A stretch of 64,000 nt of DNA from Chitinophagaceae bacterium DXS (GTDB taxonomy: Bacteria; Bacteroidota; Bacteroidia; Chitinophagales; Chitinophagaceae): positions 2,629,677 through 2,693,676 of the forward strand of contig CP128386.1 in the NCBI GenBank assembly GCA_030345135.1. The letters run 5' to 3'. Numbering within the stretch: position 1 is the first letter of the stretch; every line of letters starts with the position of its first letter. Made by a program: the position numbers and the translations under genes. The notes beneath the pieces are model-generated. The model was not told the DNA's origin, did not search any database, and was given only the letters and a program-made list of their open reading frames with translations. Of this stretch, positions 422-61,730 are shown piece after piece.

Positions 422-491
422 ATGTACGATGTACGATATTAGATGTATGATGTGACCGATCGCAAGTACGAGTTACGAAGTACGAAGTACC
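422..491. repeat. Heptad tandem array, GTACG family
   Basis: Ten consecutive 7-bp units in constant phase, with words such as ATGTACG, ATGTATG and AAGTACG, begin four bases after the phosphatase stop codon and run up to the terminator stem. Units are degenerate (one, CGATCGC, is off-consensus) but the phase never slips. A related array in opposite orientation lies at 578-605, so the two flank the terminator as an imperfect inverted repeat. Confidence 0.8.
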
Positions 492-495
492 TGGG

Positions 496-532
496 TGCAA
501 GAGCTCGATTATATCTGAGCTCTTGCATTTTT
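496..532 (+). terminator. Rho-independent terminator after the phosphatase gene
   Basis: Perfect 11-bp arms TGCAAGAGCTC (496-506) and GAGCTCTTGCA (517-527) enclose a 10-nt loop and are followed by five T residues. The orientation fits the end of the plus-strand phosphatase transcript. Confidence 0.85.
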
Positions 533-577
533 AAATTTAAGCAGTTGTCTAAAAAATAACGTAGCCTGCATTAAAGT

Positions 578-605
578 ACTTCGTAATTCGTAATTCGTAC
601 TTAAA
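578..605. repeat. Heptad array, AATTCGT family
   Basis: Four units (ACTTCGT, AATTCGT twice, ACTTAAA) in 7-bp phase. The reverse complement resembles the 464-491 part of the array on the other side of the terminator. The 418-734 gap otherwise holds only the terminator and the candidate promoter region of the next operon. Confidence 0.65.
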
Positions 606-618
606 CCGGTTTTCTTCC

Positions 619-626
619 TACTTTTG
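619..626 (+). promoter_or_regulatory. Candidate -7 box of the DUF3857 operon
   Basis: TACTTTTG matches the Bacteroidota -7 consensus TAnnTTTG and lies about 110 bp upstream of the ATG at 735. I see no convincing TTG -33 element at the expected distance, so this is a partial match only. Confidence 0.4.
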
Positions 627-627
627 T

Positions 628-663
628 CCGCTATAGATTTTTGTAAATAGAAATTTATAGCGG
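628..663 (+). promoter_or_regulatory. Inverted repeat at the expected transcript 5' end
   Basis: Arms of 13 bp with one mismatch (628-640 and 651-663, outer part CCGCTATA/TATAGCGG) enclose a 10-nt loop. The repeat starts two bases after the candidate -7 box, so it would lie over the start site and fold at the 5' end of the mRNA, or act as an operator. No T-run follows, which argues against a terminator. Confidence 0.45.
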
Positions 664-734
664 ATATTTATTTTATAAATTTCATATTTAATAAAACACC
701 AAACTGATTATCAAAGCAATTTAAAACGTACCTC

Positions 735-2672
735 ATGCTTAAACCCCTTTCAGGGCTAGTTGTGTGCCTGATATTTTCAACCATAGCCTATTCCCAGTTT
801 CAAACAGCCGATGCTGAAGGTGCATTACAGGCATCTAACCTTAAAAAGATCGATAAAAAAGCCAAATACGGCGCGTATCTCATCAACAAAGAATTTCAAT
901 TTAATACGGCAAAAGGTATTAACAATCAATCCATTGTTACATCCCAGGAGAACAGTGTGATTGAAATGGCCAGCATTGCCGAAAAAACGCCTGTCGGCTA
1001 CCTGGTTCCTTTCAACAGTTTTGTTAAGCTGAAGGATTATGATTTCCAGATCTATTACAAAAATGGTTTCAAAACCGTAAAATATCCCCCGGAGAGGATT
1101 TCACTTACAGATGATAACATTTTTCTCGACGATGCATATGGGGAGCTTTATGGTTATCGGGCTGAGGAAGTCGGGCAACGGTACAGGTTTAAATATGAGG
1201 CTCAGTATACAGATGCAAAATACCTGACCCGTGTGTTCTTTCATGAGTCATTCCCGGTAAAGCAGGCGGTCATCAGCTTTAAGGTACCATCCTGGCTGGA
1301 ACTGGAAGTTCTTGAAAAAAATTTTGAAGGATATAAGATCAGGAAAGAGACACAAAAAGGAAAAGACTTCACAGTTTATAAATATACTGCCACGGATATG
1401 AGTGGGATTAAGCATGAAGCAATGTCACTTGCAAGACCTTTCTATCTTCCTCACCTGATCATCACTGTTAAGAGCTTTACTCTAAATAATCAAAAGATCA
1501 ATGGTTTTAAATCTGTGGACGACATATACGCCTGGTATAACTTTTTATATCGCAAGGCTCAAAACAATATAGATGCGATAAAAGCACAGGTGGCAACGCT
1601 GACACAAGGCAAGCCGACTGATGAGGAAAAGATCAAATCCATTTATTACTGGGTTCAGGATAACATACGTTATATAGCTTTTGAAGAAGGCTATTCCGGC
1701 TTTGTACCACAGACAGTACAGGATGTTTATAAAAACAAATATGGCGACTGTAAGGGGATGGCTAACCTGCTTACCGAAATGTTGAAAATAGCAGGTTACG
1801 ATGCACACTTTGCGTGGATTGGCACAAGGGAGATCCCTTATGATATTACCGAGGTCCAATCAATGTGTGTAGATAATCACGCCATTTCAGTACTTTATTT
1901 AAAAGGAAAAACATACTTCATTGACGGCACGGAAAAGTATGCAGCTTTTGGTAAGGATGCTGCCCGCATTCAGGGAAAGAAAGTTCTGGTAGAACATGGT
2001 GACAGTTACAAAATTGAAACCGTTCCGGTGCCTCCTATTGACAACAATCAAATCAGCACAATCTCAAAACTAAAGATAGACGGAGAGAAAATGACCGGCC
2101 ACATGTCGGTTACTTTTGATGGTGAATCGCGTCATTTTTTTCACTATATCTACAACAATGTTCCGGCTGACAAAAGAAAGAATTTTGTCTCAGGACTGCT
2201 GGAAGGGAACTCCGAAAACACAGAGGTTTCCAACATAAAAACTTCCGACTTTACCAACAGGGAAATTCCTATCACCATTGAAGGCGATATTGAAGTTAAC
2301 AACCAGGTAACGCAGATCGACAAAACATTATATACTACCATTGATTTCTTTCCACGATCTATAATGGGTTTTAACCCGGAAGAAAACAGGCAGTCTCCTA
2401 TTGATCTCGGTAATCTTTTCGTCGCGACAGACAAAATCATGCTTGAGCTGGATGGCAACACAAAGCCTGCATCATTACCCAAAAAATTCACTGCAGCATT
2501 TAACAAGAACCAGGTTGATGCTGAATACAATTATTCCAACAATACAATCTCATTACAGAAAAAAACGACTATCGCTTCACCGGTTATTCTTCCTGCAGAT
2601 TTTGAGGCATGGAAAAAGTTTGTAGCCTCAGTGAAAGAGTTTAACAGAAGCAGTATTTCGATTCAACAATAA
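735..2672 (+). CDS. DUF3857/transglutaminase-like envelope protein, triad intact
   Basis: 645 residues with an N-terminal signal peptide (about 1-20), a DUF3857-type beta-rich domain (about 50-280) and a transglutaminase-like cysteine-protease-fold core. The catalytic-type triad is visible as Cys339 (GDCKGMANLL), His382 (DNHAISVL) and Asp397 (YFIDGT). Proteins of this architecture are exported or periplasmic in Bacteroidota and their substrates are unknown. The next gene starts 14 bp downstream and encodes a paralogue, so the two are probably one operon with a single terminator at 5009. The start is the first ATG before the hydrophobic leader. Function beyond the fold is not established. Confidence 0.85.
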   Translation: MLKPLSGLVVCLIFSTIAYSQFQTADAEGALQASNLKKIDKKAKYGAYLINKEFQFNTAKGINNQSIVTSQENSVIEMASIAEKTPVGYLVPFNSFVKLKDYDFQIYYKNGFKTVKYPPERISLTDDNIFLDDAYGELYGYRAEEVGQRYRFKYEAQYTDAKYLTRVFFHESFPVKQAVISFKVPSWLELEVLEKNFEGYKIRKETQKGKDFTVYKYTATDMSGIKHEAMSLARPFYLPHLIITVKSFTLNNQKINGFKSVDDIYAWYNFLYRKAQNNIDAIKAQVATLTQGKPTDEEKIKSIYYWVQDNIRYIAFEEGYSGFVPQTVQDVYKNKYGDCKGMANLLTEMLKIAGYDAHFAWIGTREIPYDITEVQSMCVDNHAISVLYLKGKTYFIDGTEKYAAFGKDAARIQGKKVLVEHGDSYKIETVPVPPIDNNQISTISKLKIDGEKMTGHMSVTFDGESRHFFHYIYNNVPADKRKNFVSGLLEGNSENTEVSNIKTSDFTNREIPITIEGDIEVNNQVTQIDKTLYTTIDFFPRSIMGFNPEENRQSPIDLGNLFVATDKIMLELDGNTKPASLPKKFTAAFNKNQVDAEYNYSNNTISLQKKTTIASPVILPADFEAWKKFVASVKEFNRSSISIQQ

Positions 2673-5058: not shown

Positions 5059-5103
5059 TTACACAGAGCTACACGGGAGAAGACACTGAGTTACACGGAG
5101 AAC
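5059..5103. repeat. Degenerate ACACGGAG word repeat
   Basis: Imperfect repeats of about 10-11 bp built on TTACACAGAG/TTACACGGAG. A second copy of the same word family lies at 35393-35425, also between genes. Confidence 0.55.
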
Positions 5104-5114
5104 AGGTCCCTTTT

Positions 5115-5175
5115 GCACATTCGCACATTCACATATTCGCACATTTACAATTTTCCACTTTCAATTGTCAATTAA
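5115..5175. repeat. Octad array (GCACATTC) running into heptads
   Basis: About six units in 8-bp phase (GCACATTC twice, ACATATTC, GCACATTT and two more degenerate) followed by AATTGTC-type 7-bp words. The block ends at the stop codon of the minus-strand DUF6263 gene (5177-5179). Confidence 0.7.
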
Positions 5176-16757: not shown

Positions 16758-18566
16758 ATGAAAACATGCATTGTCTGCATCCTGATCTCCTGTCTTATGG
16801 TTTGTTGCAAACAAGCTGAACAAAAGGAACAAGCGATACAACAACAAGCACAGGTTTACCTGGACGATTACAATAAGGAATACCAACGTTTGTATTATGC
16901 ATCATCCCTGGCACAATGGAAATTGAACACACGTATTGTAAAAGGCGATACAACTTCCGAATACGAGGCTGGCGAAGCAGATAAAGCGCTGGCAAAATAT
17001 ACCGGCAGCAAGAGCAATATAGATTCGGCTCAAAAATACCTGGCCATTAAAGACAAACTCACTGCTTTGCAGGCAAGACAATTTGAAGCGATTCTTTTTA
17101 ACGCAGGAAACAACCCCGAGACGGCCGGTAGTGTTGTTGAAAGACGTATTAAGATAACCAATGAACAGACGTCCGCTCTTTTTGGATTTAAATACATGCT
17201 GAATGGAAAGGCGGTAACAACCGGGGAGATCGACCAGATCCTGCAAACATCAACTGATCTTAATGAGCGTCTTGCTGCATGGACCGCCAGCAAAGAAGTC
17301 GGCAAAGTATTAAAAGCAGGCGTCGACTCGCTGCAACATCTGCGCAATGCATCCGTTACGCCACTTAACTACAAAGATTTTTTTGATTACAACGCACAAG
17401 AATATGGAATGAGTGGTGATGAAATGGTGAAATTAACCAGGCAATTTATAAGTGAAATATGGCCGCTATACCGTGAACTGCATACGTGGGCGAGATATGA
17501 ACTGGCAAAAAGGTATAAACAACCTGTTCCGGACTATATACCCGCACATTGGTTACCAAACCGCTGGGGACAAAGCTGGGGCGATCTTGTTAACGTGCAG
17601 GGATTAAATATTGACCCTGTTCTAAAAGCCAGGGGACCAGAGTGGATGGCGCATCAAAGCGAAAAATTCTATGAAAGCATTGGCTTTGATTCTTTACCGG
17701 CTTCCTTCTGGAAAAACAGCAGCCTCTACCCTGTTCCGGCAGATTCTCCTTTTTCAAAAAACAATCATGCTTCCGCATGGCATATGGATCTTGACAAAGA
17801 CGTCCGCTCACTGCAAAGCATTGTACCTACTACAGATTACTGGAGCACTGTGCTGCATGAACTGGGACACATATATTATTATATGAGCTACTCTATTCCT
17901 GAAGTACCTGTGATTTTAAGAAACGGAGCGAATCGTGGTTTTCATGAGGCATTTGGATCGATGATGGGTCTTGCGTCTTTACAGAAACCTTTCCTTGAAA
18001 ATCTAAAAATGATCAGCAGCAGTGTTAGCACCAATGACACTTTGAAAATGCTAAATGAAGCATTGGAATACATCGTTCATATTCCCTGGGGAAGTGGTGT
18101 GATGACAGAGTTTGAATATGCGCTGTATTCAAAGAACCTTCCGGAGAACCAGTACAACAAAACATGGTGGGATCTTGTAAAGAAATACCAGGGTATTGTG
18201 CCCCCATCCGAAAGAAGTGAAGCTTATTGTGATGCTGCAAGCAAGACACATATCACCGATGATCCTGCCCAATACTATGATTACTCTATAGCGAATGTAT
18301 TATTGTTCCAGTTTCATACCTATATAGCTAAAAACATTTTACACCAGGATCCGCATGCAACAAATTATTGGGGCAACAAAGCTGTAGGTGATTTTCTTAA
18401 AAGTGTTATGAAAACGGGCGCCAGTGTGGATTGGCGAAAACACCTGCAGGAAACCATTCACAGCGATATGAGTGCAAAACCAATGCTGGATTATTTTGCA
18501 CCTTTAATGACGTGGTTGCAAAATGTAAACAAGGGAAGAAAATATACACTGCCGGAAAAGATGTGA
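16758..18566 (+). CDS. M2 family zinc dipeptidyl carboxypeptidase (ACE-like), secreted
   Basis: 602 residues with an N-terminal leader that ends in a lipobox-like LMVCC (Cys about 16-17), so probably a lipoprotein. The zinc site is HELGH (H367, H371) with the third ligand Glu397 in GFHEAFG, the same layout as angiotensin-converting enzyme. M2 peptidases remove dipeptides from the C-terminus of peptides; bacterial members are thought to serve peptide nutrition. It is monocistronic. A heptad repeat array (18576-18613) starts ten bases after the stop codon. Confidence 0.88.
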   Translation: MKTCIVCILISCLMVCCKQAEQKEQAIQQQAQVYLDDYNKEYQRLYYASSLAQWKLNTRIVKGDTTSEYEAGEADKALAKYTGSKSNIDSAQKYLAIKDKLTALQARQFEAILFNAGNNPETAGSVVERRIKITNEQTSALFGFKYMLNGKAVTTGEIDQILQTSTDLNERLAAWTASKEVGKVLKAGVDSLQHLRNASVTPLNYKDFFDYNAQEYGMSGDEMVKLTRQFISEIWPLYRELHTWARYELAKRYKQPVPDYIPAHWLPNRWGQSWGDLVNVQGLNIDPVLKARGPEWMAHQSEKFYESIGFDSLPASFWKNSSLYPVPADSPFSKNNHASAWHMDLDKDVRSLQSIVPTTDYWSTVLHELGHIYYYMSYSIPEVPVILRNGANRGFHEAFGSMMGLASLQKPFLENLKMISSSVSTNDTLKMLNEALEYIVHIPWGSGVMTEFEYALYSKNLPENQYNKTWWDLVKKYQGIVPPSERSEAYCDAASKTHITDDPAQYYDYSIANVLLFQFHTYIAKNILHQDPHATNYWGNKAVGDFLKSVMKTGASVDWRKHLQETIHSDMSAKPMLDYFAPLMTWLQNVNKGRKYTLPEKM

Positions 18567-18575: not shown

Positions 18576-18613
18576 AGCTATCAGCTATTAGCCATCAGCT
18601 ATCAGCTGTCAGC
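18576..18613. repeat. Heptad array, AGCTATC family
   Basis: Five phased 7-bp units (AGCTATC, AGCTATT, AGCCATC, AGCTATC, AGCTGTC) plus AGC, right after the M2 peptidase stop codon. The same words recur at 22147-22167 and, as AGCTAAT, at 31765-31792. Confidence 0.8.
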
Positions 18614-18703: not shown

Positions 18704-18766
18704 ACAACTTATAACCCACAATGGATAACTTACAACCTATTAAGTATAACGTATAACTTACAACGT
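18704..18766. repeat. Heptad array, AYAACNT family, overlapping a stop codon
   Basis: Nine consecutive 7-bp units with words such as ACAACTT, ATAACTT and ACAACGT. The stop codon of the minus-strand GNAT gene (18758-18760) and its last two codons lie inside the array, so the repeat has replaced or defined the gene end. Confidence 0.8.
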
Positions 18767-19246
18767 ACGAAGCATCCAGATATCACAACCAAAATGTCCG
18801 GAATTGCCGAGCGGTTGCTTAAGATATTTAAAGCCTAATTTTTCATACAGGCTAACCGCATTACTCAATTCCGGCATCGTTTCGAGGTATATGGAAGTGT
18901 AACCCATTTTTTTAGCTTCAGTGATACATCGTTCAATTAACTTTTTACCCAATCCCTTTCCGCGGAGTTTATCCAATAAATAAAGTTTTACTAACTCACA
19001 ACAACCTTCAGGAAGATTTTCTGTTGGATAGATGCCGGAACCACCCACAATTTCATTATTCAGTTCAACAACAAAATAAACGGACCCGGGTTGATGAAAA
19101 AGACTGAACAAATCATCTGTCGTTGGATCATAATAAACCGTGCCCGGCTTGTCAGCCTTGTGCTCTGCGAGCACGGTGCGGATAATGGCTGCGATTGCTT
19201 TGTTATCTGATTGCTCTATTACCCTGATATTAATGCTATCGTTCAT
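18758..19246 (-). CDS. GNAT family N-acetyltransferase
   Basis: 162 residues from the ATG at 19246; a TTG start five codons upstream is less likely. The acetyl-CoA-binding motif A is visible as LRGKGLGKKLIERC (R-x-x-G-x-G, about 97-110), followed by YTSIYLET and the motif-B NAVSLYEKLGF. It would transfer an acetyl group from acetyl-CoA to an amine on a small molecule or protein in the cytosol. The substrate is unknown. Its C-terminal codons and stop belong to a heptad repeat array. Confidence 0.85.
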   Translation of the reverse strand: MNDSINIRVIEQSDNKAIAAIIRTVLAEHKADKPGTVYYDPTTDDLFSLFHQPGSVYFVVELNNEIVGGSGIYPTENLPEGCCELVKLYLLDKLRGKGLGKKLIERCITEAKKMGYTSIYLETMPELSNAVSLYEKLGFKYLKQPLGNSGHFGCDIWMLRTL

Positions 19247-19314
19247 GCAGCAAAGTAACAATGTAAATATGTGAGAGAAGCAACGAAATATTTAAGCGAT
19301 TGAAAAAAATTGTG

Positions 19315-22556: not shown

Positions 22557-22591
22557 CATTGTCAATTTTCAACTTTCAATTGTCCATTGAA
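22557..22591. repeat. Heptad array, AATTNTC family
   Basis: Five phased units (CATTGTC-type, AATTTTC, AACTTTC, AATTGTC, CATTGAA) ending five bases before the mntH stop codon at 22597. Confidence 0.75.
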
Positions 22592-22596: not shown

Positions 22597-24468
22597 CTAA
22601 ACAATCAACACCGGTATCATAAGTTTATGTCTCACCTGGTTGGCGGTTTCGCCGTAAATAATATCCTTCAATCCCGTATGCCTGTGAGATCCCATGACAA
22701 GCATATCAGCTTTTCTTTCCTGTACAATCCTTACTATTTCTGAAACACGATTGCGATAACCAAGTGCAGTCTCAACAGTATACCCAAGTGCAGTTAACTG
22801 AGCCGCAAATGAGGCAAGATGTTGTTCGTCCTTACGCGTTTCGTTATCATCGGCTGAATCACCGGAATAACTGGCAGTAACAGTCTCTACAATATGAATC
22901 AAAATATATGTTGCGGCATGATTACCCTGCCGCAATGCCTGTGCAATTACGTTTTCATCTTTGCCAGAAAAATCAAGCGCAATAGCAATATGCATCAAAG
23001 GTGTAACTGAAAGGTTTTGCAGCAACGGCGTTTCTTTGTGCATATATACATTCTTTCGTTCCCTCCTTCTTCGTAGGGGCAGAAAGGTCATGGCAAGAAA
23101 CAGCCAGCCAAAAAGAACTATCGCAACTGCCAGAATAATTTTCAATCCAATATGTCCGCCTTCTTCAAACACTTGCAACATCTCATCAATAACCAATCTC
23201 GCATTCAGAAATACCAGCACACCGGCAACAAGCCAGGCCAATATTTTTACCGGAAGCTTGATGGCAAAATGCCCCATATCCTGTTTATCGCTAACAAAAT
23301 GGATCAATGGAATTATTGCAAATCCTAACTGTAAACTTAATACAACCTGGCTAAGCACAAGAAGGTCATCCAATTTATCATCACCATAAATAACAATGAC
23401 AAGCACTGCGGGAATGATAGCAATAAGCCGTGTAAGCAATCTTCTGATCCATGGATTTATACGCAGCCTTAAATAACCTTCCATTACAATCTGTCCAGCC
23501 AATGTTCCGGTTACGGTGGAGCTTTGTCCTGCTGCTATCAACGCAACTGCAAACAAAATTGGTGCCCATGTATTTCCCAACATTGGCTCTAACATTTTAT
23601 GCGCATCTTCAATACGCGCAACACCTGTATTTCCAGATGTATAAAAAACTGATGCGGCAAGAATGAGTATTCCTGCGTTCACCAGGAATGCGGCATTTAA
23701 CGCGATGGCACTATCTGCAAAATTGTATCTGAGCGCTCTTGTTATGCCTGCATGCGTGTTTCTTATTTTGCGGGTTTGAACCAGTGCCGAGTGCAGATAA
23801 AGATTGTGTGGCATAACGGTGGCACCTATTATGCCGACAGCGATATAGAGTGATTGTTTATTCAATGCAGAAGGAACAAAACCTTTTGCAACCTCGCCCA
23901 AATCTGGTTTTGCCATCACCAGTTGTATCAGGAACGAAAGACCTATGACTGCTACGAGCGCAATAATAAAGGCTTCCATTTTCCGGATCCCGTATCGCTG
24001 TAATATCAGTAGAATAAATGTATCCAGCACAGTTATTAATACGCCCCATAAAATGGGAATGCCTGTTAACAGATGTATCCCTATGGCCATACCAAGCACT
24101 TCTGCCAGATCAGTGGCCGCAATGGCTAGCTCAGCCAGTATATAAAGACAAAAATTGACCATTGGGGGATACACTTCCCTGTTTGCTTGCGCAAGATCTT
24201 TTCTTCTAACAATACCTAACCGGGCACTCAGGCTTTGCAGTAACAAAGCCATCAGGTTACTCATCAACAATACCCATATAAGGCTGTAACCGAATCTTGC
24301 TCCTCCCTGAAGATCTGTGGCCCAGTTTCCCGGATCCATATAGCCAACGCTTACCAGGTAAGCCGGACCAACATATGCGAGAAAACGTCTGAAACCCTTA
24401 CGTTTTACAGTTGTGTCAACCGACTCATGTACGTCGCTTAAGGAAACATCTTTATAAGAAGGTAACAT
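22597..24468 (-). CDS. mntH: Nramp divalent metal transporter fused to a UspA-like domain
   Basis: 623 residues. Residues about 30-445 are an Nramp transporter with the metal-site motif DPGN (45-48) and MPHN (about 219-222), and about 11 membrane segments. After a basic linker (RRRRERK) comes a universal-stress-protein-like domain (about 472-623) with LVMGSHRHTGLKDIIYGE, where the ATP motif G-2x-G-9x-G(S/T) is altered to G-2x-R-9x-G-E. It imports Mn2+ or Fe2+ with protons; the UspA part may sense nucleotide or gate transport, which is inference. It follows the DtxR-type regulator by one base, so the regulator probably controls it. Confidence 0.88.
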   Translation of the reverse strand: MLPSYKDVSLSDVHESVDTTVKRKGFRRFLAYVGPAYLVSVGYMDPGNWATDLQGGARFGYSLIWVLLMSNLMALLLQSLSARLGIVRRKDLAQANREVYPPMVNFCLYILAELAIAATDLAEVLGMAIGIHLLTGIPILWGVLITVLDTFILLILQRYGIRKMEAFIIALVAVIGLSFLIQLVMAKPDLGEVAKGFVPSALNKQSLYIAVGIIGATVMPHNLYLHSALVQTRKIRNTHAGITRALRYNFADSAIALNAAFLVNAGILILAASVFYTSGNTGVARIEDAHKMLEPMLGNTWAPILFAVALIAAGQSSTVTGTLAGQIVMEGYLRLRINPWIRRLLTRLIAIIPAVLVIVIYGDDKLDDLLVLSQVVLSLQLGFAIIPLIHFVSDKQDMGHFAIKLPVKILAWLVAGVLVFLNARLVIDEMLQVFEEGGHIGLKIILAVAIVLFGWLFLAMTFLPLRRRRERKNVYMHKETPLLQNLSVTPLMHIAIALDFSGKDENVIAQALRQGNHAATYILIHIVETVTASYSGDSADDNETRKDEQHLASFAAQLTALGYTVETALGYRNRVSEIVRIVQERKADMLVMGSHRHTGLKDIIYGETANQVRHKLMIPVLIV

Positions 24469-31560: not shown

Positions 31561-31596
31561 GGGCATACTAACCGAAGCTTGTTCTCGCACCTGAAG

Positions 31597-31631
31597 TTTT
31601 GAATTTTTGCTTTTGAATTTTGACTTAATTC
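31597..31631. repeat. Heptad array, TTTTGAA/TTTTGAC family, first copy
   Basis: Five phased units (TTTTGAA, TTTTTGC, TTTTGAA, TTTTGAC, TTAATTC). Its end is part of the 60-bp direct repeat described separately. Confidence 0.7.
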
Positions 31632-31756
31632 GCCGCGTCGCCGCTTCTTCGCGCTCGCCGCGTGAAACCTTCGCGGGCTTTTTTTTGAATTTTGACTTTT
31701 GAATTTTGACTTAAATCGCCGCGCCGCTGCTTCTCCGCGCCCGCCGCGTGAAACCT
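31611..31756. repeat. 60-bp direct repeat (two copies)
   Basis: Copies at 31611-31670 and 31697-31756 agree at 55 of 60 positions. Each joins TTTTGAATTTTGACTTA to a GC-rich half with CGCCGCG words and ends CGCCGCGTGAAACCT. The sharp AT-to-GC switch inside each copy is unlike the neighbouring DNA. Confidence 0.75.
31683..31717. repeat. Heptad array, TTTTGAA/TTTTGAC family, second copy
   Basis: Five phased units alternating TTTTGAA and TTTTGAC and ending TTAAATC. Confidence 0.7.
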
Positions 31757-31764: not shown

Positions 31765-31792
31765 AGCTAATAGCTAATAGCTCAAAGCTAAT
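31765..31792. repeat. Heptad array, AGCTAAT family, at the apaG stop codon
   Basis: Four phased units (AGCTAAT, AGCTAAT, AGCTCAA, AGCTAAT). The apaG stop codon, TAG at 31788-31790 on the minus strand, lies within the last unit. Confidence 0.75.
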
Positions 31793-32174
31793 TATTCTTA
31801 AACGGTACGATCATTTCAAACGGAGGGATCTTTACCTTGAAAGTGGCTTTGGTATTTTGATTTTCCATGATATAATAGCCGTACATGCGGCCCATTTCTG
31901 TACGGAGGTTGCATCCGCTAACATACTGGAACTGCCTTTGTGATTCTATTACAGGCTGAAGTCCGACAACACCCTCTCCTTCTACCTCACGTTGCTGTCC
32001 GTTACTATCAAAAATATACCACTGACGGCTTAGTAATTTGATCGTAAAATTGTTGTGATTTTCAATAGTAATACGGTAAGCAAACATGAACTCGTTATTC
32101 AACGGGTTACTATATTCCTGCTGATAAAATGTTTCAACGCTAATCTGAACACCTTCAGAAATTTTTGATACCAT
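31788..32174 (-). CDS. apaG: ApaG domain protein
   Basis: 128 residues, full length for ApaG. It has the fibronectin-III-like fold pattern with YRITIENHN (about 32-40), LLSRQWYIFDSNG (about 47-59) and the glycine-rich GEGVVGLQPVIE loop (about 66-77). ApaG is linked to Co2+ resistance and Mg2+ efflux in enterobacteria, but the biochemical role is unresolved. Monocistronic. Confidence 0.93.
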   Translation of the reverse strand: MVSKISEGVQISVETFYQQEYSNPLNNEFMFAYRITIENHNNFTIKLLSRQWYIFDSNGQQREVEGEGVVGLQPVIESQRQFQYVSGCNLRTEMGRMYGYYIMENQNTKATFKVKIPPFEMIVPFKNN

Positions 32175-32251: not shown

Positions 32252-32286
32252 AATTGACAATTGAAAAGGGACAATTGAAAATGTGG
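32252..32286. repeat. Heptad array, AATTGAC family
   Basis: Five phased units (AATTGAC, AATTGAA, AAGGGAC, AATTGAA, AATGTGG) upstream of apaG and downstream of the symporter terminator. This is one of the few arrays not at a stop codon. Confidence 0.7.
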
Positions 32287-35291: not shown

Positions 35292-35326
35292 AATTGAAAA
35301 TTGACAATGGATAATTGACAATTTTT
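35292..35326. repeat. Heptad array, AATTGAC family, first in the 35251-35568 gap
   Basis: Five phased units (AATTGAA, AATTGAC, AATGGAT, AATTGAC, AATTTTT). The 318-bp gap upstream of the GH43 gene holds only this, the ACACGGAG words and two further arrays. Confidence 0.75.
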
Positions 35327-35392
35327 TTATTGCGAAAAACAAAATTACAGTTAGATTTTTTCGTGCCCTGCGTATTTTTTTGTTACACAGAG

Positions 35393-35425
35393 AAACAGCC
35401 GGAGGTGAAACAGAGGTGCACGGAG
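35393..35425. repeat. Degenerate ACACGGAG word repeat, second copy
   Basis: TTACACAGAG-like words matching the block at 5059-5103, with CAGAGGTGCACGGAG at the end. Confidence 0.5.
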
Positions 35426-35481
35426 CCTTTGCCACGATTATCTGTCATTTTATTTTTGATTGTGTACACCACATGACATTG

Positions 35482-35565
35482 AATTGAAAATTGATAATTG
35501 AAAATAACGATCCTATTTTTCTAAGTCCAACATTGTCAATTTTCAACTATCAATTTTCAATTGAA
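35482..35565. repeat. Two inverted heptad arrays before the DUF4136 stop codon
   Basis: 35482-35509 carries AATTGAA/AATTGAT units and 35531-35565 carries AATTTTC/AACTATC units, the reverse complement family. On the minus strand the second block follows the TAG at 35569-35571 and shows TGA once per 7 bp. Confidence 0.78.
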
Positions 35566-35568
35566 GAA

Positions 35569-36156
35569 CTATTTCTTAGGAAAGTCCTTAAACATTTTTG
35601 GAATTAGCTTGTGCAGCATTTCCTGCAAAGTGGGTGTTTGCGCTTCTTCGAGTTCACCTGCAGCAGAAGAGCGCCAAACAACTTTCTTATCTTTTGCATC
35701 TATCATATCAATAACAAGTGAACCCTGGCGCAGGGTATCAATGTTTATTTTTCCGCCATACACTGCCGGTCTGTTATTTGAGCTGAAGACGTATATTTTT
35801 TGCTCCAGATCATAAGGACTGCCATATACCTGCGGATTGTACACAACCAGCTTTTCATCAGTTGCCTCGTATTTTCTGCCAAGCTTTAACGTGTACTGAA
35901 AATAGCAATCCGGATGAGCCGTATCCAATACCATTTTTCGCTTGTCCAATTGCTTTACCACTTCCGGCACCAGCTCATTGGTAAACTTTTTCCGGCTCAG
36001 CATTTTCGTGAATGCAGTATCTGTGGTAGGCAGATATCCATACGCTTTGTACTTTGAAAAGTTTTCGTCAGAAAGCCGTTCGGTCTTTACATTTTTTGAA
36101 GAAGAAGCACAACTGGTAGCGAGCGCTATAATCAGGCAAAGGCAAAAGAATTTCAT
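35569..36156 (-). CDS. DUF4136 lipoprotein
   Basis: 195 residues with a lipobox (LATSCASSS, Cys about 16). The mature part has the DUF4136 layout: FSKYKAYGYLPT early, a middle strand-rich region and GSLVIDMIDAKDKKVVWRS near 145-163. The family occurs as envelope lipoproteins of unknown role in Bacteroidota. A second DUF4136 protein is at 60862-61497. Confidence 0.85.
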   Translation of the reverse strand: MKFFCLCLIIALATSCASSSKNVKTERLSDENFSKYKAYGYLPTTDTAFTKMLSRKKFTNELVPEVVKQLDKRKMVLDTAHPDCYFQYTLKLGRKYEATDEKLVVYNPQVYGSPYDLEQKIYVFSSNNRPAVYGGKINIDTLRQGSLVIDMIDAKDKKVVWRSSAAGELEEAQTPTLQEMLHKLIPKMFKDFPKK

Positions 36157-43266: not shown

Positions 43267-43420
43267 CATATATCTTTTTTAATTATCCACTAGCAACTAC
43301 TCAACAAGCGCTGTCGGCTGTTTTGAGATGCAAAAAAGTGTTTCTCACTTCTATAGCCGGAAAAGCAGGTCTCATTTATCGGTCCGCCACTTTTGACTTT
43401 TACTTTGGTCCACGCCTTAA

Positions 43421-43469
43421 ACCTGATACCTGATACCTAAAACCTTATACCTCACACCTCACTCCTCAC
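43421..43469. repeat. Heptad array, ACCTNNN family, at the galK stop codon
   Basis: Seven phased units (ACCTGAT twice, ACCTAAA, ACCTTAT, ACCTCAC twice, TCCTCAC). On the minus strand the galK TGA (43468-43466) is the first of TGA, TGA, TGA, TAA spaced exactly 7 bp, so stops fall in all three frames. Confidence 0.85.
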
Positions 43470-44662
43470 CCCTTCAACACCTGGCTGCCATCTTCAATCT
43501 TCGCAATGTATACCTTCAGGTCTTTGTTCATATGCTGTTTATATGCTTTTGCAACATCTTCTACCAATGCATCAATACGATCTTCTTTTACCAGGTTAAT
43601 TGTGCAGCCGCCAAAGCCGCCACCCATCATTCTTGCACCAACAACGGCTGGATTATCTCTTACATAATCTACTAAAAAGTCAAGTTCTTTACAGCTCACC
43701 TCGTAGAGTTTACTTAAACCGTCGTGTGTTTCAAACATTTTTTTGCCAAATGCAACTATATCGTTGTTTTCAAGATCATTACATGCAGCCAATAAACGAG
43801 CATTCTCATCAACAACATATCTGCAACGGTTATAGATCAGATCATCATTTGGCTTTACATATTTATCTAACATTTCAACGTTAACGTCGCGAAGACTTTT
43901 AACTTCCGGATGATCTTGTTGTATAAATGAAAGGCCTTTCTCACATTGCATCCTGCGAACATTGTATTCGGATGAAGCGAGGGAATGATGCACATTTGTA
44001 TCCAGCAGAACAACTTTATAGCCATCCATTTGCAAAGGTTCATACACGTATTCCAGTGAACGGCAATCCAATCTTATAACATGGTTATGTTTGCCGAACA
44101 CGCTCGCAAACTGATCCATGATCCCGCATTGTACACCTGCAAATTCATGTTCTGCTTTTTGAGCCATTTTTACAAGTGTTTGCTTATCAAAACCAGCCTG
44201 AAAAAATGTATTTAATGCAAAAGCTGTAGCGCACTCTACGGCAGCAGAAGATGAAAGGCCGGCCCCAATAGGAACATCTGCAGTTAGCGCGGCGTCAAAA
44301 CCTTTTAATGCAAATCCTTTCTTTCTGAATTGTTCAACAACCCCTAAGATGTAGTTGGGCCAGGATTTGGATGTCTGCCTGGCAACGGAATGTATATCAG
44401 TTATAAAATGATCATTCAGGTCTATTGAATGCAAATGAATCTCTTCATCTGCACGCGGAGTTAAAGCTATATATGCAGCTTTATCGATTGCGGCCGGTAA
44501 AACAAATCCGTTATTGTAGTCGGTATGCTCACCTATAAGATTGATGCGTCCCGGAGAACAGGCAACAATTGTCTCGTTTTGAATAAAGGTTTCGAGTGAC
44601 ACAGGAATTTTTCTCTGTGTGGTGCGGGCCAATGATAGTTCTTCTGTCGCGTTACTGCTCAC
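43466..44662 (-). CDS. galK: Galactokinase
   Basis: 398 residues, GHMP kinase family. The galactokinase signature PGRINLIGEHTDYN is at about 36-49, the ATP loop PIGAGLSSSAA at about 133-143 and motif 3 MMGGGFGGCTINLV near 352-365. It phosphorylates alpha-galactose to galactose 1-phosphate in the cytosol, the first committed step of the Leloir pathway. galT and galE are not in the window. The stop codon lies in a heptad array. Confidence 0.94.
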   Translation of the reverse strand: MSSNATEELSLARTTQRKIPVSLETFIQNETIVACSPGRINLIGEHTDYNNGFVLPAAIDKAAYIALTPRADEEIHLHSIDLNDHFITDIHSVARQTSKSWPNYILGVVEQFRKKGFALKGFDAALTADVPIGAGLSSSAAVECATAFALNTFFQAGFDKQTLVKMAQKAEHEFAGVQCGIMDQFASVFGKHNHVIRLDCRSLEYVYEPLQMDGYKVVLLDTNVHHSLASSEYNVRRMQCEKGLSFIQQDHPEVKSLRDVNVEMLDKYVKPNDDLIYNRCRYVVDENARLLAACNDLENNDIVAFGKKMFETHDGLSKLYEVSCKELDFLVDYVRDNPAVVGARMMGGGFGGCTINLVKEDRIDALVEDVAKAYKQHMNKDLKVYIAKIEDGSQVLKG

Positions 44663-49776: not shown

Positions 49777-49811
49777 AGCTTAAAGCCCAAAGCGTAAAGC
49801 CTAAAACTGAA
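49777..49811. repeat. Heptad array, AGCNNAA family
   Basis: Five phased units (AGCTTAA, AGCCCAA, AGCGTAA, AGCCTAA, AACTGAA) six bases after the stop codon of the small exported protein; most contain TAA or TGA on the coding strand. Confidence 0.78.
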
Positions 49812-49945: not shown

Positions 49946-49966
49946 AATTTTCAATTTTCAATTTCT
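49946..49966. repeat. Heptad array, AATTTTC family, at the S41 stop codon
   Basis: Three units (AATTTTC twice, AATTTCT); the TGA of the S41 protease gene (49960-49958) lies within the array and another TGA follows 7 bp later on the coding strand. Confidence 0.72.
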
Positions 49967-51460
49967 CCTCGCCATTTTCCCTTTCTCTACAAACGATCCT
50001 GAAAATTTCCGGGCAGTAAGCTGCTTGTAAGCCACGTCATAAGGTTTCTGCCTGGCAAGTGCTCTTCTGTTTGATTCATCCGAAAAATTCGGTCCGCCTT
50101 TTCTGCCAAATGTGCCATTACTGATATAATACAACGCTGTACCCAGGCATGGCTCAGTAACATCTCCCCAGCTTTTATTAACCCCGTCCGCAACGAGCTT
50201 GTCAGGAACAAATCCCGAATAATAATCGCCTACATTCTGACTATTAACTGTTTTGAACGAAATGGGATAGATAGAATAATTAAATATATCTATCGGGAAA
50301 AAACCAACAGGTTTGCCATATGTTGTGTCGCCTACAAGCTTCACATCCATATAAGGGCGCAGGTTATTGATGAGCAATTCGCTGGCAGACGCCGAGCTGC
50401 CGCTAACGATAAAAAATACACGCGTTAAACCGGTTATAGCACCTGCTTTTTCAAAATTCACCACATTATTGGCCTGGGTAAAAATGTCTGTTGGATATTG
50501 ATTATAAGGATCCTTCCTGTACAGCAACGGATATTTTCCAGCCTGTAAGGAATCGTTATATATGTAAGTGTACATTTTCTTGCCATTGGCTGAAGCCGGA
50601 GCGATCAGGTTGGCTAAAGTATCTTGTGTTGCAGTAGAGCCACCGCGGTTATATCTTAAATCAACAATCAGGTCGTTAATTCCTGCAGCAGCGAAGTCGT
50701 TAAATGCGTTAGCTAGTTCGTTGCGGGACGTTTGACCGAAGAACTGATTAAATACAAGATATCCAATCTTATGCGTCTGCGCGTTATCAGATAAAACGTT
50801 TTCATACAACACCGAATTTGCCGTGTAATTGGCATAGTTAAGGGTTGATGTAGTAGTTGTTCCATCTGGCTTTGTGAATTCAAACGTAGCACTGGTAGCT
50901 GTGCCAAAAAAGGTATTGTTTAAAATATCAATGCTGGCATTGTCGTACGCTATCGGCGTGTTATTTATCTTACTAACATACCAACCGCGCTCAACCCCTG
51001 CGATACCGGCCGGGGATTTGTCGTACACATAATTTACAAACCAATATACAGAATCAACGGGCTCTGCCCTATCAAGAGATGCTGCTTTTACAAGAAAACC
51101 GAAATCATTGCTGGTGCCGGTTTGCAGCCCCTCAGACTCCGCGTTGGTTGTCACAAAACTATATCTGTCAAGTGGCTGGTACGCTCGGATAGCATCCATT
51201 TCGTTTGTAGCAGCTTCCTCATCCGTCGCACCGGTATAACCGCGCGGGTTAAACACATCGTATGACGGAATTACCTCGTGCCAAAAGTAAACTTCCTTTG
51301 TGTAGAGATATACAGAATCCTTGAGCAGGTCGCTTTGGCTTGGGGTGCCATTTCCGGTTGTATCAGTACCAGATCCTCCGCTGTCATTCAGCTCCTTCTG
51401 ACAAGAAAAGAGCGATGAAAAACAAACTGCCACGATGATTAGCAAAAAGGCGTTTCTCAT
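49958..51460 (-). CDS. S41 family protease lipoprotein
   Basis: 500 residues with a lipobox (SSLFSC, Cys about 20). A PDZ-like domain (about 130-200) precedes the S41 tail-specific-protease core: DLRYNRGGS (about 272-280), the Ser in SGSSASASELL (about 355) and the Lys in TYGKPVGF (about 381), a Ser/Lys dyad. C-terminal processing peptidases of this group cleave proteins in the periplasm. The substrate is unknown. Confidence 0.88.
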   Translation of the reverse strand: MRNAFLLIIVAVCFSSLFSCQKELNDSGGSGTDTTGNGTPSQSDLLKDSVYLYTKEVYFWHEVIPSYDVFNPRGYTGATDEEAATNEMDAIRAYQPLDRYSFVTTNAESEGLQTGTSNDFGFLVKAASLDRAEPVDSVYWFVNYVYDKSPAGIAGVERGWYVSKINNTPIAYDNASIDILNNTFFGTATSATFEFTKPDGTTTTSTLNYANYTANSVLYENVLSDNAQTHKIGYLVFNQFFGQTSRNELANAFNDFAAAGINDLIVDLRYNRGGSTATQDTLANLIAPASANGKKMYTYIYNDSLQAGKYPLLYRKDPYNQYPTDIFTQANNVVNFEKAGAITGLTRVFFIVSGSSASASELLINNLRPYMDVKLVGDTTYGKPVGFFPIDIFNYSIYPISFKTVNSQNVGDYYSGFVPDKLVADGVNKSWGDVTEPCLGTALYYISNGTFGRKGGPNFSDESNRRALARQKPYDVAYKQLTARKFSGSFVEKGKMARRN

Positions 51461-51573: not shown

Positions 51574-52245
51574 ATGAACATCGCACAATTTATAGATCAT
51601 ACCATATTAAAACCAACTACTCTAATAAAAGATATTGAAAAGGTGTGTAATGATGCTTTACAATATAAATTTTGTGCGGTCTGTATTCCTCCTCCACTCA
51701 TAAAAACCGCGAGGAATTTTCTAGAGGGAAGCAATATTAAAGTCGCGACCGTAATCGGATTCCCGTTTGGTTATTCGGCGGTCGAGGCAAAAATTGCTGA
51801 AATAGTGCTCGCAATGGTGGATGGTGCTGATGAGCTGGATATTGTTATCAATCTTGTAGCCCTTAAAAACAATGACTGGACTTATCTCGCCAACGAAATA
51901 AACCACATAATGCCCGTTATCAAAAGCAAACAGAAAACGGTGAAAATTATTATTGAAAGCGGCGTGTTAACAGATGAGGAAATTATTAAATGTTGCGAAC
52001 TCTACGGAGCTGCAGGAATTGATTATTTAAAAACATCTACAGGCTATGCGGAAAAGGGAGCAACGGTGGAAGCTGTAAAATTAATGCGCGCCCATCTGCC
52101 CGAACATATACAAATAAAAGCATCCGGCGGAATCCGGGATTATGCCTTTGCCAAAGAATTGATAGACGCCGGAGCAACAAGGTTGGGCTGTAGTGCAAGC
52201 GTGGCCATAGCCCAGGGAGAAAGTGCGGGCGCGGGCGGGTATTAA
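51574..52245 (+). CDS. deoC: Deoxyribose-phosphate aldolase
   Basis: 223 residues, class I aldolase TIM barrel. The Schiff-base Lys is K153 in YLKTSTGY, with a second conserved Lys in QIKASGGIRD (about 182). IDHTILKPT opens the protein, as in other DeoC enzymes. It cleaves deoxyribose 5-phosphate to acetaldehyde and glyceraldehyde 3-phosphate in nucleoside catabolism, in the cytosol. Monocistronic, divergent from the S41 gene. Confidence 0.95.
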   Translation: MNIAQFIDHTILKPTTLIKDIEKVCNDALQYKFCAVCIPPPLIKTARNFLEGSNIKVATVIGFPFGYSAVEAKIAEIVLAMVDGADELDIVINLVALKNNDWTYLANEINHIMPVIKSKQKTVKIIIESGVLTDEEIIKCCELYGAAGIDYLKTSTGYAEKGATVEAVKLMRAHLPEHIQIKASGGIRDYAFAKELIDAGATRLGCSASVAIAQGESAGAGGY

Positions 52246-52251
52246 AAAATA

Positions 52252-52279
52252 AAAATTCAAAAGTAGAAAGTAAAAAAAT
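52252..52279. repeat. Heptad array after deoC
   Basis: Four phased units (AAAATTC, AAAAGTA, GAAAGTA, AAAAAAT) starting seven bases after the deoC stop codon. Together with 52425-52458, this is all that is recognised in the 320-bp gap. Confidence 0.6.
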
Positions 52280-52424: not shown

Positions 52425-52458
52425 TTTTGAATTTTACTTTTGAATTTTGACTTTCGAT
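52425..52458. repeat. Heptad array, TTTTGAA/TTTTGAC family, third copy
   Basis: TTTTGAA, TTTTAC (6 bp, a slip), TTTTGAA, TTTTGAC and TTTCGAT, matching the words at 31597-31717. Further TTTTGGC/TTTTGGT words continue to about 52510. TAAATTTG at 52522-52529 fits a -7 box for the SPOR gene. Confidence 0.65.
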
Positions 52459-59561: not shown

Positions 59562-59591
59562 AAGGGCCATCGGAATGGCCCTTCTGCTTTT
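59562..59591 (+). terminator. Terminator after mlaE
   Basis: AAGGGCCAT (59562-59570), loop CGGA and ATGGCCCTT (59575-59583), followed by CTGCTTTT. Confidence 0.8.
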
Positions 59592-59680
59592 AGCCCACAG
59601 TAAACTATACTTCTTCCATTCCGTATTTCCAATTCGCTGTTCCAATCAAACTAACCAGGCGCCACAAACATTTTATCAGG

Positions 59681-59828: not shown

Positions 59829-59892
59829 TGAAAGCTTTCCGGGTACGAATCTCTTCTATACCAGCTTTAAATAATTATCTCACAAATCAAAA

Positions 59893-59969
59893 CATTTTCA
59901 ATTCTCCCTTTTCAATTATCAATTTGACTCAATCCATTTTCAATTATCCCTTTTCCATTGTCAATTCAA
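59893..59969. repeat. Eleven-unit heptad array, MATTNTC family
   Basis: Eleven 7-bp units in unbroken phase (CATTTTC, AATTCTC, AATTATC, CATTGTC and similar). The longest array in the window, within the 699-bp gap 59522-60220. Confidence 0.85.
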
Positions 59970-60003
59970 TGTCGTTTAGTTAAGCCGGCATCGTCAACTT
60001 TGG

Positions 60004-60134
60004 GAGATGTCTCCTATCGTCGACATGACGATCCGGGCTTATCAGAAAAAGTAATCACAACAGCACTGGTAACAAGTACATGATAATGTTCCAGTCTTGA
60101 ACCGCATCGTCACCTCGACGACAGGAGAGGTCTC
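60004..60134. repeat. Inverted-repeat element with 32-bp arms
   Basis: Arms 60004-60035 and 60103-60134 match at 26 of 32 positions; the words TCGTCGA and GACGAT recur in both. About 67 bp lie between them. No coding capacity. Confidence 0.6.
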
Positions 60135-60220
60135 TTGAATATTGATCTGATCGTGATACTTTATGCGTGTTAAATACTACAAACTCTTAACTCAGCGACA
60201 TTGAATTGTCAATTGAAAAA

Positions 60221-60847
60221 TCATCGCATCGGAAAATGCACGCCCGCATGAATGCCCAATGAATTCAGGTTATCGTACCCATTCTTTGAATACGGCACAT
60301 AGTTGTAATTAACGCCCAACTGAAACCCTGACCGGCTCCACTTGCTAAAGGGAATTTGAACACCGGCTCCGGCCTGCGCCATAAAACTAACCGAGTTTTG
60401 TGCGCTGCCGAATTCGCCAAGATACTGACTAAAGAAGATCATATTGATACCAGCTGCAAAAGACACATAAGGTTGTATCATCGCCTTCTTATCTCCCATT
60501 GGATTAAACATCACCTTACCAAGTAATGGCACAGTTTGTATAGAATTACTCAGGACCGCTGATATATCCTGACCATCGCTATGATATACTGTGCGCGGGT
60601 ATTTCTGATAATAGTCCTGGAATCCTGTATAAATACCTAAATCAATCTTATCATTCAGTACGTACTTGAGTCCACCTGCAAAACCACGTGCAGAGCCGTT
60701 GCTGATAACATTATTTTTAAAGCCTCCAAGCGGAAGGCTGTAATTATAATTCAGCTCCAGTTTAACCTCTCCCTGTTGTGCACGGGCAAAAGAAAAAATA
60801 AACAGTAGCGGCAAATATATAATTGATGTTTTCAACACACTTTTCAT
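60221..60847 (-). CDS. Outer-membrane beta-barrel protein
   Basis: 208 residues with a signal peptide (about 1-23). Alternating hydrophobic/polar strands, frequent Gly and aromatic residues and a C-terminal strand ending in GVHFPMR fit an eight-stranded outer-membrane barrel. It follows the DUF4136 lipoprotein gene by 14 bp, so the two form an operon. Function unknown. Confidence 0.82.
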   Translation of the reverse strand: MKSVLKTSIIYLPLLFIFSFARAQQGEVKLELNYNYSLPLGGFKNNVISNGSARGFAGGLKYVLNDKIDLGIYTGFQDYYQKYPRTVYHSDGQDISAVLSNSIQTVPLLGKVMFNPMGDKKAMIQPYVSFAAGINMIFFSQYLGEFGSAQNSVSFMAQAGAGVQIPFSKWSRSGFQLGVNYNYVPYSKNGYDNLNSLGIHAGVHFPMR

Positions 60848-60861
60848 GATACAGATTTTGA

Positions 60862-61497
60862 CTATTTATGTAAATAAGCTGACTGGTCAAATAATGCTTT
60901 CACCTGGCTATCGGCAGTGGCTTCATTAAAAATCCCGGAGCCTCTTATTAACCCATTCCAGATCAGTTGAATTTTATCTTTGTTGGTCGCTACATTTTTC
61001 AGGTCAAGCAGATCGATGGACAAAGCACCTTCAGTAATGGAATAAACGGAATATGCATAGAACGGCATACCATAACCAAAGCCGCCGTATCCCCAATAAT
61101 AAGGGTCCCAGTATCCGCCATAATAACTCCAGTAATCGGGGTAGCTCATAACTCCCGTGCTGGTTTGATAAATTCTTGAGACGTTAATGCCCAGGTCGGG
61201 CTTCTGACCTTTCTCTACCAATGTATAGCCTGCCTGCTTCATGTATTTCGTCACGGCATTAAGATAGGCCTGATCAACAGCGTTGAGACTTTTATAAGCA
61301 TCGCCGTTATCGATAACTCCGACAGAATCTGAGATACTGAATGTAGTATAGCTGTTAAAGTTTACGGCGGAGTCACGATTGGTTATATAAATCCGCGACT
61401 CCTCATTTGTAAGATTGTTTAATGGCTCTTTGGTGCAACCGGTAATAAACAGAGCTGCGAGAACTACAGCAGAGAACAGTGACATTATTTTTCTCAT
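60862..61497 (-). CDS. DUF4136 lipoprotein
   Basis: 211 residues with a lipobox (FITGC, Cys about 21). DUF4136 marks: NFNSYTTFSISDSVG (about 47-61), YGGYWDPYYWGYGGFGYG (about 130-147, a Gly/Tyr/Trp-rich loop) and ALSIDLLDLKN. It is upstream of the beta-barrel gene with a 14-bp gap. A possible envelope pair; the role is unknown. Confidence 0.85.
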   Translation of the reverse strand: MRKIMSLFSAVVLAALFITGCTKEPLNNLTNEESRIYITNRDSAVNFNSYTTFSISDSVGVIDNGDAYKSLNAVDQAYLNAVTKYMKQAGYTLVEKGQKPDLGINVSRIYQTSTGVMSYPDYWSYYGGYWDPYYWGYGGFGYGMPFYAYSVYSITEGALSIDLLDLKNVATNKDKIQLIWNGLIRGSGIFNEATADSQVKALFDQSAYLHK

Positions 61498-61681
61498 GTT
61501 CTTAATATTTCGCGTTAACGAGAATCAACATGCATAAGAACGAAAAATATGCCTGCGCGTTTGTTGTAGCAATCAGTTTTATAAATACTTTATAAGAGTT
61601 GTTAAACTCAGGCAAAAGTGCCGGCTATAAACAATTTAAATAGAATCATTTCCGTTAAAAGTCACGTTAGAATTCTCCGGG

Positions 61682-61730
61682 TTTTGATTTTTTATTTTTG
61701 CATTTTTACTTTTCGCTCTCGACTATCACA
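61682..61730. repeat. Heptad array, TTTTNNN family, at a stop codon
   Basis: Seven phased units (TTTTGAT, TTTTTAT, TTTTGCA, TTTTTAC, TTTTCGC, TCTCGAC, TATCACA) ending two bases before the stop codon of the PKD-repeat gene (61733-61735). Confidence 0.75.

Follow-up and report, generated by a model that had tools for sequence, protein, structure and literature searches.

Heptamer arrays at gene ends of a Chitinophagaceae genome as probable paired ends of small, stop-anchored IVS-type elements

The 64,000-nucleotide stretch of DNA analysed here, called the window (G000:C1:2629677-2693676, from a single-contig Chitinophagaceae genome of 7.29 Mb), raises the question of what the short tandem repeats are that stand at many of its gene ends in one common phase and in different words. 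Heptamer repeats have been described for decades without an agreed origin. A preliminary description of this DNA had counted about twenty such arrays, and 20 intergenic arrays with a 7-bp phase were found between positions 422 and 61707, in several word families of the types that it listed. Our analysis indicates that these arrays are probably the two ends of small mobile elements of the intervening sequence (IVS) type, for the most part gene-less copies, which are anchored at stop codons and whose complete form carries a PF05635 (IVP/S23) gene. The pairing of the arrays, their polarity, the preferred number of cores, the stop anchoring, the linkage to IVP genes, the distribution and the folding potential are direct results.

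The statistics were obtained from a sample of 864 kb, made up of the window and of 40 stretches of 20 kb each, taken at even spacing from the same genome. Arrays were called with Tandem Repeats Finder (TRF), overlapping rows were merged and coding cases were dropped. Genes were taken as open reading frames (ORFs) of at least 80 amino acids; hence stop positions are exact and start positions approximate. This procedure gave 270 merged arrays with a unit phase of 7 bp, 236 of them intergenic. An excess of 7-bp periodicity over shuffled intergenic DNA, the test set beforehand in the preliminary description, was found: intergenic TRF rows of period 7, 14 and 21 numbered 220, 73 and 22, versus at most 2, 2 and 1, respectively, in three order-2 Markov shuffles. 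The autocorrelation of intergenic DNA has peaks at lags 7, 14, 21, 28 and 35, and no peak at lag 7 or 14 appeared in that of coding DNA, which was followed up to lag 15.

Concerning the position of the arrays, 200 are located in regions bounded by a stop; 68 of these are no more than 10 bp away from the stop codon, and 33 overlap it. Random placement of the array midpoints inside their own gaps gave an expectation of 27.0 (standard deviation 4.5, maximum 47 in 500 runs), so the enrichment at stop codons that had been foreseen is real. The expectation is lower when overlap with the stop is disallowed (13.8 for stops and 12.0 for starts), a control that is too lenient compared with random midpoints. 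Because the fair control halves the stop excess, confidence in the element reading was slightly lowered. Near starts, whose positions are approximate, there is no excess (19 of 176 arrays versus 22.8 expected). Short operonic gaps were considered as the full cause of the proximity to stops and rejected, since in 35 tandem gene regions the stop-side distance is precise (median 2 bp) and the start-side distance is loose (median 41 bp); such gaps alone are therefore insufficient. The earlier statement that most arrays begin at a stop is right about the anchoring and too strong about its extent in the window, where 9 of the 20 arrays lie within 12 bp of a stop codon and several others are the opposite inverted arm of an element.

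The arrays have a polarity, with one direction for each word family. Among 69 stop-adjacent arrays, 66 are forward and 3 reverse, and the reverse cases are by eye AGCT-type arrays that the classifier misfiled as AAAGCYY. Since word polarity was defined from the stop-adjacent arrays, this count is partly a matter of definition, and more independent support comes from the opposite polarity of the far arrays and from a second genome. In tandem gene pairs, the arrays at the stop are forward in a ratio of 45:2, and those located further away are reverse in 70 cases and forward in 25. Neighbouring arrays face inward (><) 48 times and outward (<>) once, and they run in the same direction 23 (>>) and 32 (<<) times. 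The second genome, G009, belongs to the same family; with word patterns written after examples had been seen, all of its 38 same-family pairs face inward and its arrays at stops are forward 63:1. The words noted at 3' ends are thus located as the preliminary description placed them, but they are mostly not free-standing: they are the paired inverted ends of elements. In the gene-less elements, which are the majority of copies, 14 to about 460 bp separate a forward array from its reverse partner. As in an IVS, these terminal inverted repeats are able to form a stem, both in the inward pairs and in two predicted RNA folds in the window, those of element 464-608 (z -11.1, with a terminator-like stem included and contributing) and element 35473-35568 (z -5.0). 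Arm-to-arm homogenisation was also considered and rejected, as the excess of similarity between arms is only slight.

Furthermore, a preferred number of repeats is observed. The commonest row length of 7-mers is 31 bp in both genomes (40 of 301 rows in G000 and 27 of 143 in G009), and that of 8-mers is 35 bp (21 of 97 rows in G009). Both lengths correspond to four units plus three bases (4p+3), that is, to five three-base cores, so it is the repeat number and not the length that is shared. G000 has in addition a peak of 30 rows at 28 bp, the length of the AAGTACG arrays. A slippage microsatellite would have no preferred repeat number or polarity, and here there are peaks at 31 and 35 bp and a fixed polarity. 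The 7-bp phase that the preliminary description emphasised holds for this genome, but 7 bp is not essential, as G009 builds the same design from 7-, 8- and 9-bp units. Regarding the latter, the loci L152, L158, L161 and L167 contain 9-bp-type arrays with AATCATGAC words and, in several copies, an outer inverted repeat GGAACGCA/TGCGTTCC; these arrays, apparently with four cores, are possibly another subclass.

Small genes were met between arrays, and the profile PF05635 was then looked for, a four-helix-bundle family also named 23S rRNA IVP or S23. Inverted flanks with a score of at least 17 were counted as arms. The genome has seven PF05635 matches, and all seven have inverted arms on both sides, so that at 7 of 7 genome loci, located outside the window, an S23/IVP frame stands between the ends as in an IVS. 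Their arm words are seven different ones: AGCTNTN, GTTNTAC, AATTGAN, ATGTACG, the 8-mer AATGTGCG, AAGACNG and ATCAGAG. TRF repeats are present on both sides of five of these genes and on at least one side of all seven. A full element in this genome, consisting of a forward array, the PF05635 gene and a reverse array, spans about 0.5-0.8 kb and lies directly past a stop. Of 175 control small genes, nine reach the arm score, including one IVP and one GxxExxY gene, and TRF repeats lie on both sides of 9 and on at least one side of 64. Among 29 IVP loci from other genera, inverted flanks scoring at least 17 were found in 22, some of which are not clearly periodic, and TRF repeats lie on both sides in 13 and on at least one side in 23.

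Four of the nine main word families (AGCTNTN, GTTNTAC, AATTGAN and ATGTACG) flank an IVP gene of this genome, and the IVP gene of another genus (L198) is bordered by an AGGTNTN-like word. Protein identity is correlated with arm-word similarity over 29 loci, 7 from this genome and 22 from other genera (Mantel r 0.614, p 0.0002), which is what a gene moving along with its arms should give. All 29 armed loci face the stop of a neighbouring gene, at a distance of no more than 12 bp in 19 and of no more than 20 bp in 23; a stop of this kind is held by 84% of the gaps in the genome (510/607). In 20 of the 23 loci within 20 bp the IVP gene is in sense with that neighbour, and this 20:3 bias is unlike an ordinary DNA transposon, unless expression by read-through has been selected.

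The distribution of the arrays also points to IVP. PF05635 is present in 45 of the 60 Chitinophagaceae genomes drawn. Five of the 15 genomes without it were sampled, and their 320 kb contained 2 arrays of 7, 8 or 9 bp. Seven genomes with IVP have 5-55 such arrays per 100 kb, in a set in which G000 and G009 were not blind choices and the other five were picked for many IVP genes and known contigs; two of the IVP-rich choices (G004 and G059) reach only 5. In a plasmid collection, 40 records match one IVP of this genome, mostly from cyanobacteria, and 16 were examined. Arms with a score of at least 17 occur in seven of these, six cyanobacterial and the seventh from Azospirillum, and the arm words include AAAAGCT, TAGGGAG and CAGGGAA. 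The kinship that had been suspected with cyanobacterial heptamers, the short tandemly repeated repetitive sequences (STRRs), is therefore supported, since several cyanobacterial plasmids carry IVP genes bordered by repeats of this kind. When a same-strand gene lies upstream of the plasmid copy, a periodic run begins 0-5 bp past its stop in 7 of 12 cases; in the background for this test, 30 of 2400 windows pass, at a single position. The Azospirillum copy lies inside a large-subunit rRNA gene (Rfam RF02541) and has heptamer arms. As a separate observation, on the cyanobacterial plasmids L295, L305 and L306 an IVP gene is found between cas genes (cas6-IVP-cas4 twice and cas10-IVP-cmr3), with both neighbours still annotated.

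Turnover was compared between G009 and two congeners, with about 86-93% identity over long matches, and between L106 and L103 (90%). Of 29 orthologous intergenic sites where one genome or more has an array, the majority retain both array and word. At some sites the words are different: in both arms at L157 4582-4769; at L157 10202-10328, where three words stand in three congeners (with G067 and G068) behind the same terminator-like hairpin, one arm being detected in G068; in both arms, with more closely related words, at L157 19528-19700 and L160 17971-18155; and in one arm between the pair at L106 17715-17795. At L157 14093-14255 the array is missing in G068, and the region is not a clean empty site. 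No insert bearing arrays at both ends was found across 17 named pairs of related loci, which yielded one 75-bp insert with a single array call. A 1.2-kb insert in G068, itself without arrays, interrupts an array. Among the loci returned for ApaG, from which very close records were possibly excluded, the nearest relative with a name is Foetidibacter luteolus (95% identical); its ApaG gene end has the same stop codon and no array, and the remaining gap has no BLAST match.

A number of observations speak against the arrays being ends of mobile IVS-type units. There is no clean empty site or target duplication at the 29 orthologous congener sites, and no IVP remnants were seen in the gene-less copies. 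The inward pairs mix two families in 19 of 48 cases, which is odd for a unit that moves whole, and the similarity between the two arms of a pair barely exceeds that to further arms of their family (higher than the control mean in 22 of 29). Same-direction neighbours amount to 55 pairs, of which 31 come from six amplified clusters. Five of the nine main word families have no IVP of their own in the genome; 7 of the 29 IVP loci of other genera fail the inverted-flank test, although the frame given by the ORF caller is wrong or altered in 4 of them; and 9 of the 16 plasmid copies are below the arm score, several with an array on one side only and others with none visible. The cut-off of 17 was chosen after the flank scores of the other-genus loci had been seen, and the 175 control genes all come from this genome. 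The correlation between word and protein follows from common descent too, binding being unneeded. Finally, the five-core peak is a mode and not a majority (13-22% of rows), and the 9-bp arrays of G009, with four cores by eye, counter a universal five.

Other origins have to be weighed against this reading. The inverted arrays could be RNA signals owned by the host, selected at 3' ends as terminators or mRNA stabilisers, with IVP as a domesticated binder. Stop anchoring, long predicted hairpins, the terminator-like stems within some elements and the persistence of most elements between congeners agree with such a role. However, the same site holds different words in congeners (L157 10202-10328 and 4582-4769), the Foetidibacter ApaG gene end lacks the array, the sampled related genomes are nearly array-free, and IVP genes with such ends occur in unrelated operons and on plasmids, so we regard this origin as improbable. 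Somewhat less credit is given to derivatives of an ordinary DNA transposase (Y1/RAYT or another insertion sequence), similar to miniature inverted-repeat transposable elements (MITEs) or repetitive extragenic palindromic (REP) sequences, in which IVP would be a mere passenger. Inverted ends, dispersal and gene-less copies are what these would give. Nevertheless, in many genera and on plasmids it is IVP that is repeatedly found between the arms, and a DNA transposase offers no obvious reason for stop anchoring or for the 20:3 sense orientation. A Y1/RAYT origin was rejected: Y1 was the family examined, and none of the 7 Y1_Tnp (PF01797) loci of the genome has arrays on both sides. As to the target-site duplication and the parent transposase with matching ends that characterise a MITE, the sites compared gave no clean empty site, and the matching ends surround PF05635, a family not known as a transposase.

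Replication slippage, a view attributed to Mrazek and co-workers in the available text of PMC4679880 and PMC4692102, takes 7 bp as a natural slip length of the polymerase, so that arrays arise independently in unconstrained intergenic DNA. According to the same partial sources 7-mers are common in many bacteria, and in this genome some local clusters are clearly amplified and a few long arrays reach up to 108 bp. Independent origin does not account for a single word family at about 100 places in the genome (105 matches), for the fixed polarity to the stop, the inward pairs and the five-core length peak of both 7- and 8-mers, or for the tie to IVP genes, and slippage as the origin is very unlikely. 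The least probable explanation is that the arrays are insulators that place a stop in every frame, a feature emphasised in the preliminary description; as a purpose it is poorly supported here. All three frames are stopped in 14 of 68 arrays (20.6%) versus 8.1% of 371 ordinary gene ends, and in AATTGAN and TAGTGAA the coding strand is the one richer in stops. Yet 54 of the 68 arrays leave some frame unstopped, four families never stop all three, half of the all-frame cases (7 of 14) belong to AATTGAN alone, and in AGCTNTN and AAGTCAA the coding strand is the poorer of the two in stops; the mean number of stopped frames is 1.76 for the coding strand and 1.50 for the opposite one, compared with 1.38 in the control.

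If the arrays are the ends of IVS-type elements, the number of cores may have a structural meaning. Among solved proteins the closest are 2gsc and 2rld, both with five chains, which one IVP of this genome matches with E values of 8.5e-16 and 9.5e-11, respectively, and the available part of PMC4990558 describes an S23 protein of Xanthomonas campestris (2gsc, XCC0516) as a homopentamer ring, in a family said there to have no known function. Since these structures are pentameric, the five cores could be read by a pentameric IVP, one core per subunit; by analogy with these proteins, we give the binding of a five-core array by an IVP pentamer somewhat less than an even chance. RNase III might cleave the arm stems in the transcript, as has been reported for the rRNA IVS of Coxiella, and IVP would act in trans on gene-less copies. 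Movement of the element itself would rely on RNA, or else on translation termination and the terminating ribosome, and this would explain both the stop anchoring and the sense orientation; RNA-dependent targeting of this kind is put forward tentatively. With similar reserve, it may be speculated that IVS-type elements are RNA-aware mobile units in which a pentamer reads five cores and copies enter where ribosomes terminate, living in mRNA as the rRNA IVSs live in 23S rRNA, and that the STRRs, the TAACTGA repeats, the GGGAATC repeats of Xanthomonas and the multi-word heptamers of Bacteroidota are ends of one class.

In the window, all copies are gene-less, with none of the seven PF05635 genes inside it, and the arrays are situated between protein-coding ORFs and not inside a 23S rRNA helix. 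At its left end, an ATGTACG-family array that forms an outer arm (422-453, +) begins 4 bp past the stop of ORF 4-417. The adjacent hairpin element 464-608 has AAGTACG-family arrays as its left arm (464-490, +) and right inverted arm (576-605, -; TRF gives 576-599 and the genome matches extend to 605); between them lies, by reading, a terminator-like GC-rich inverted repeat followed by a T-rich stretch (497-532, +), which is paired in the predicted fold. An AGCTNTN array (18576-18613, +), 9 bp past the stop of ORF 16758-18566, and a GTTNTAC array (18704-18767, -), overlapping the stop of ORF 18758-19261 (-), form an inward pair from two different families. An AATTGAN array (22558-22589, -) lies 7 bp from the stop of ORF 22597-24468 (-).

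Around the ApaG-like ORF 31788-32174 (-), an AGCTNTN array (31765-31792, -) contains the stop codon, and an AATTGAN array (32252-32282, +) is the start-side arm, upstream of the ORF. Two AAGTCAA/TTTTGAA arrays (31592-31623, - and 31683-31712, -) are the first and second copies in an 86-bp tandem duplication beside this gene end (31597-31756), which comprises the TTTTGAA array and a GC-rich CGCCGCG stretch. AATTGAN arrays follow at 35292-35323 (+), at 35482-35505 (+), the inner arm of the hairpin element 35473-35568, and at 35532-35562 (-), 31 bp long with five cores, 6 bp past the stop of ORF 35569-36156 (-). An array of the AGGTNTN (ACCT) family (43411-43474, -) overlaps the stop of ORF 43466-44662 (-). 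Further on, an AAAGCYY array (49777-49805, +) forms a start-side arm, and an AATTGAN array (49946-49964, -) overlaps the stop of ORF 49958-51460 (-). An AAGTCAA array (52243-52277, +) that overlaps the stop of ORF 51574-52245 (+) has its inverted partner at 52425-52454 (-). The last two are a long AATTGAN array between convergent genes (59893-59967, -) and an AAGTCAA array (61682-61707, -) 25 bp from the stop of ORF 61733-63997 (-).

Elsewhere, minisatellites with units of about 69-180 bp and one heptamer array per unit were observed at G000:C1:605024-605527 and 5235697-5237085, L114:12338-12766 and L116:17881-18450; these are element-plus-flank units amplified in tandem. GCCCGTAGGGC and GTCCGTAGGAC, two short palindromes that occur repeatedly in the minisatellite L116:17920-18540, are perhaps another REP-like repeat. 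Moreover, the GxxExxY (PF13366) genes L222-L227 have flanking inverted repeats whose words form a different class (ACACAGAG, CGCTGCGGACGC and AAGACGCTAAG), and five of these six loci score at least 23 on inverted flanks. Repeats in the window at 5061-5149, 31630-31680 and 35375-35476 (e.g. ACACAGAG/ACACGGAG) are by eye like the ends of this class. The GxxExxY repeats look like a sister class in which a nuclease-fold family replaces IVP.

Heptamer repeats as such are already known, and so are their position near the upstream gene in Xanthomonas and Nostoc and the existence of rRNA IVSs with S23 frames. The suggestion that a stop-anchored, multi-family set in Bacteroidota had not been described stands in part, as heptamers by the upstream gene (PMC4692102) and TAACTGA repeats in five Bacteroidetes (PMC4679880) precede it in the portions of these papers at hand. 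In the literature searched, whose coverage left subscription papers mostly outside, no statement was found of a link between heptamer repeats and S23/IVP, of arrays that pair inward, of five cores as a rule or of a gene-less majority anchored at stops. Tying the repeats to IVP gives both of them a testable role, that of a ring protein possibly reading a five-core array, in a minimal element that is about 0.1-0.8 kb long and sits at stop codons in many genomes. Regarding the diversity of words, a separate protein may belong, or may once have belonged, to each family, and if this is true, the array-IVP pairs would be a modular repeat-reading system.

Several known systems resemble parts of this one. 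In the ring protein TRAP each subunit binds one RNA triplet, and the principle proposed here would be analogous, a ring that reads tandem repeats one per subunit; the fold and the number of subunits are different, and binding by IVP is a proposal. REP sequences, their bacterial interspersed mosaic element (BIME) and doublet (REPIN) forms, and MITEs depend on RAYT or other transposases; they are likewise short, dispersed and paired in inverted orientation in intergenic DNA, whereas the gene linked here is PF05635. As with the STRRs, heptamers stand in tandem, dispersed through intergenic DNA. The GGGGAYT repeats of Nostoc and GGGAATC of Xanthomonas, heptamers close to the upstream gene, share this dispersal, and several cyanobacterial plasmid IVP genes are heptamer-ended; in the accessible part of PMC4692102 these repeats are treated as free-standing, through slippage or G-quadruplexes, with no gene tied to them. 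The TAACTGA direct repeats of Beggiatoaceae, cyanobacteria and five Bacteroidetes are also dispersed intergenic heptamers, of unknown origin and possibly mobile, as far as the available text of PMC4679880 goes. In that account they consist of one word, located in the main genome mostly just before starts and almost never inverted, in contrast to the many words, stops and inverted pairs found here, where the arrays are not in excess near the approximate start positions. Regarding the 23S rRNA IVSs, those with an S23/IVP frame are named for Leptospira, Coxiella, Brucella and Xanthomonas in the part of PMC4990558 at hand, and in Coxiella tandem GACAGAT heptamers precede the S23 ORF (PMC4990558). 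The elements described here differ from them in lying past the stops of protein genes, in their many mostly gene-less copies and in their many word families; what they have in common is the same protein family between inverted ends, with heptamers beside the ORF in Coxiella and heptamer arms in the Azospirillum rRNA copy.

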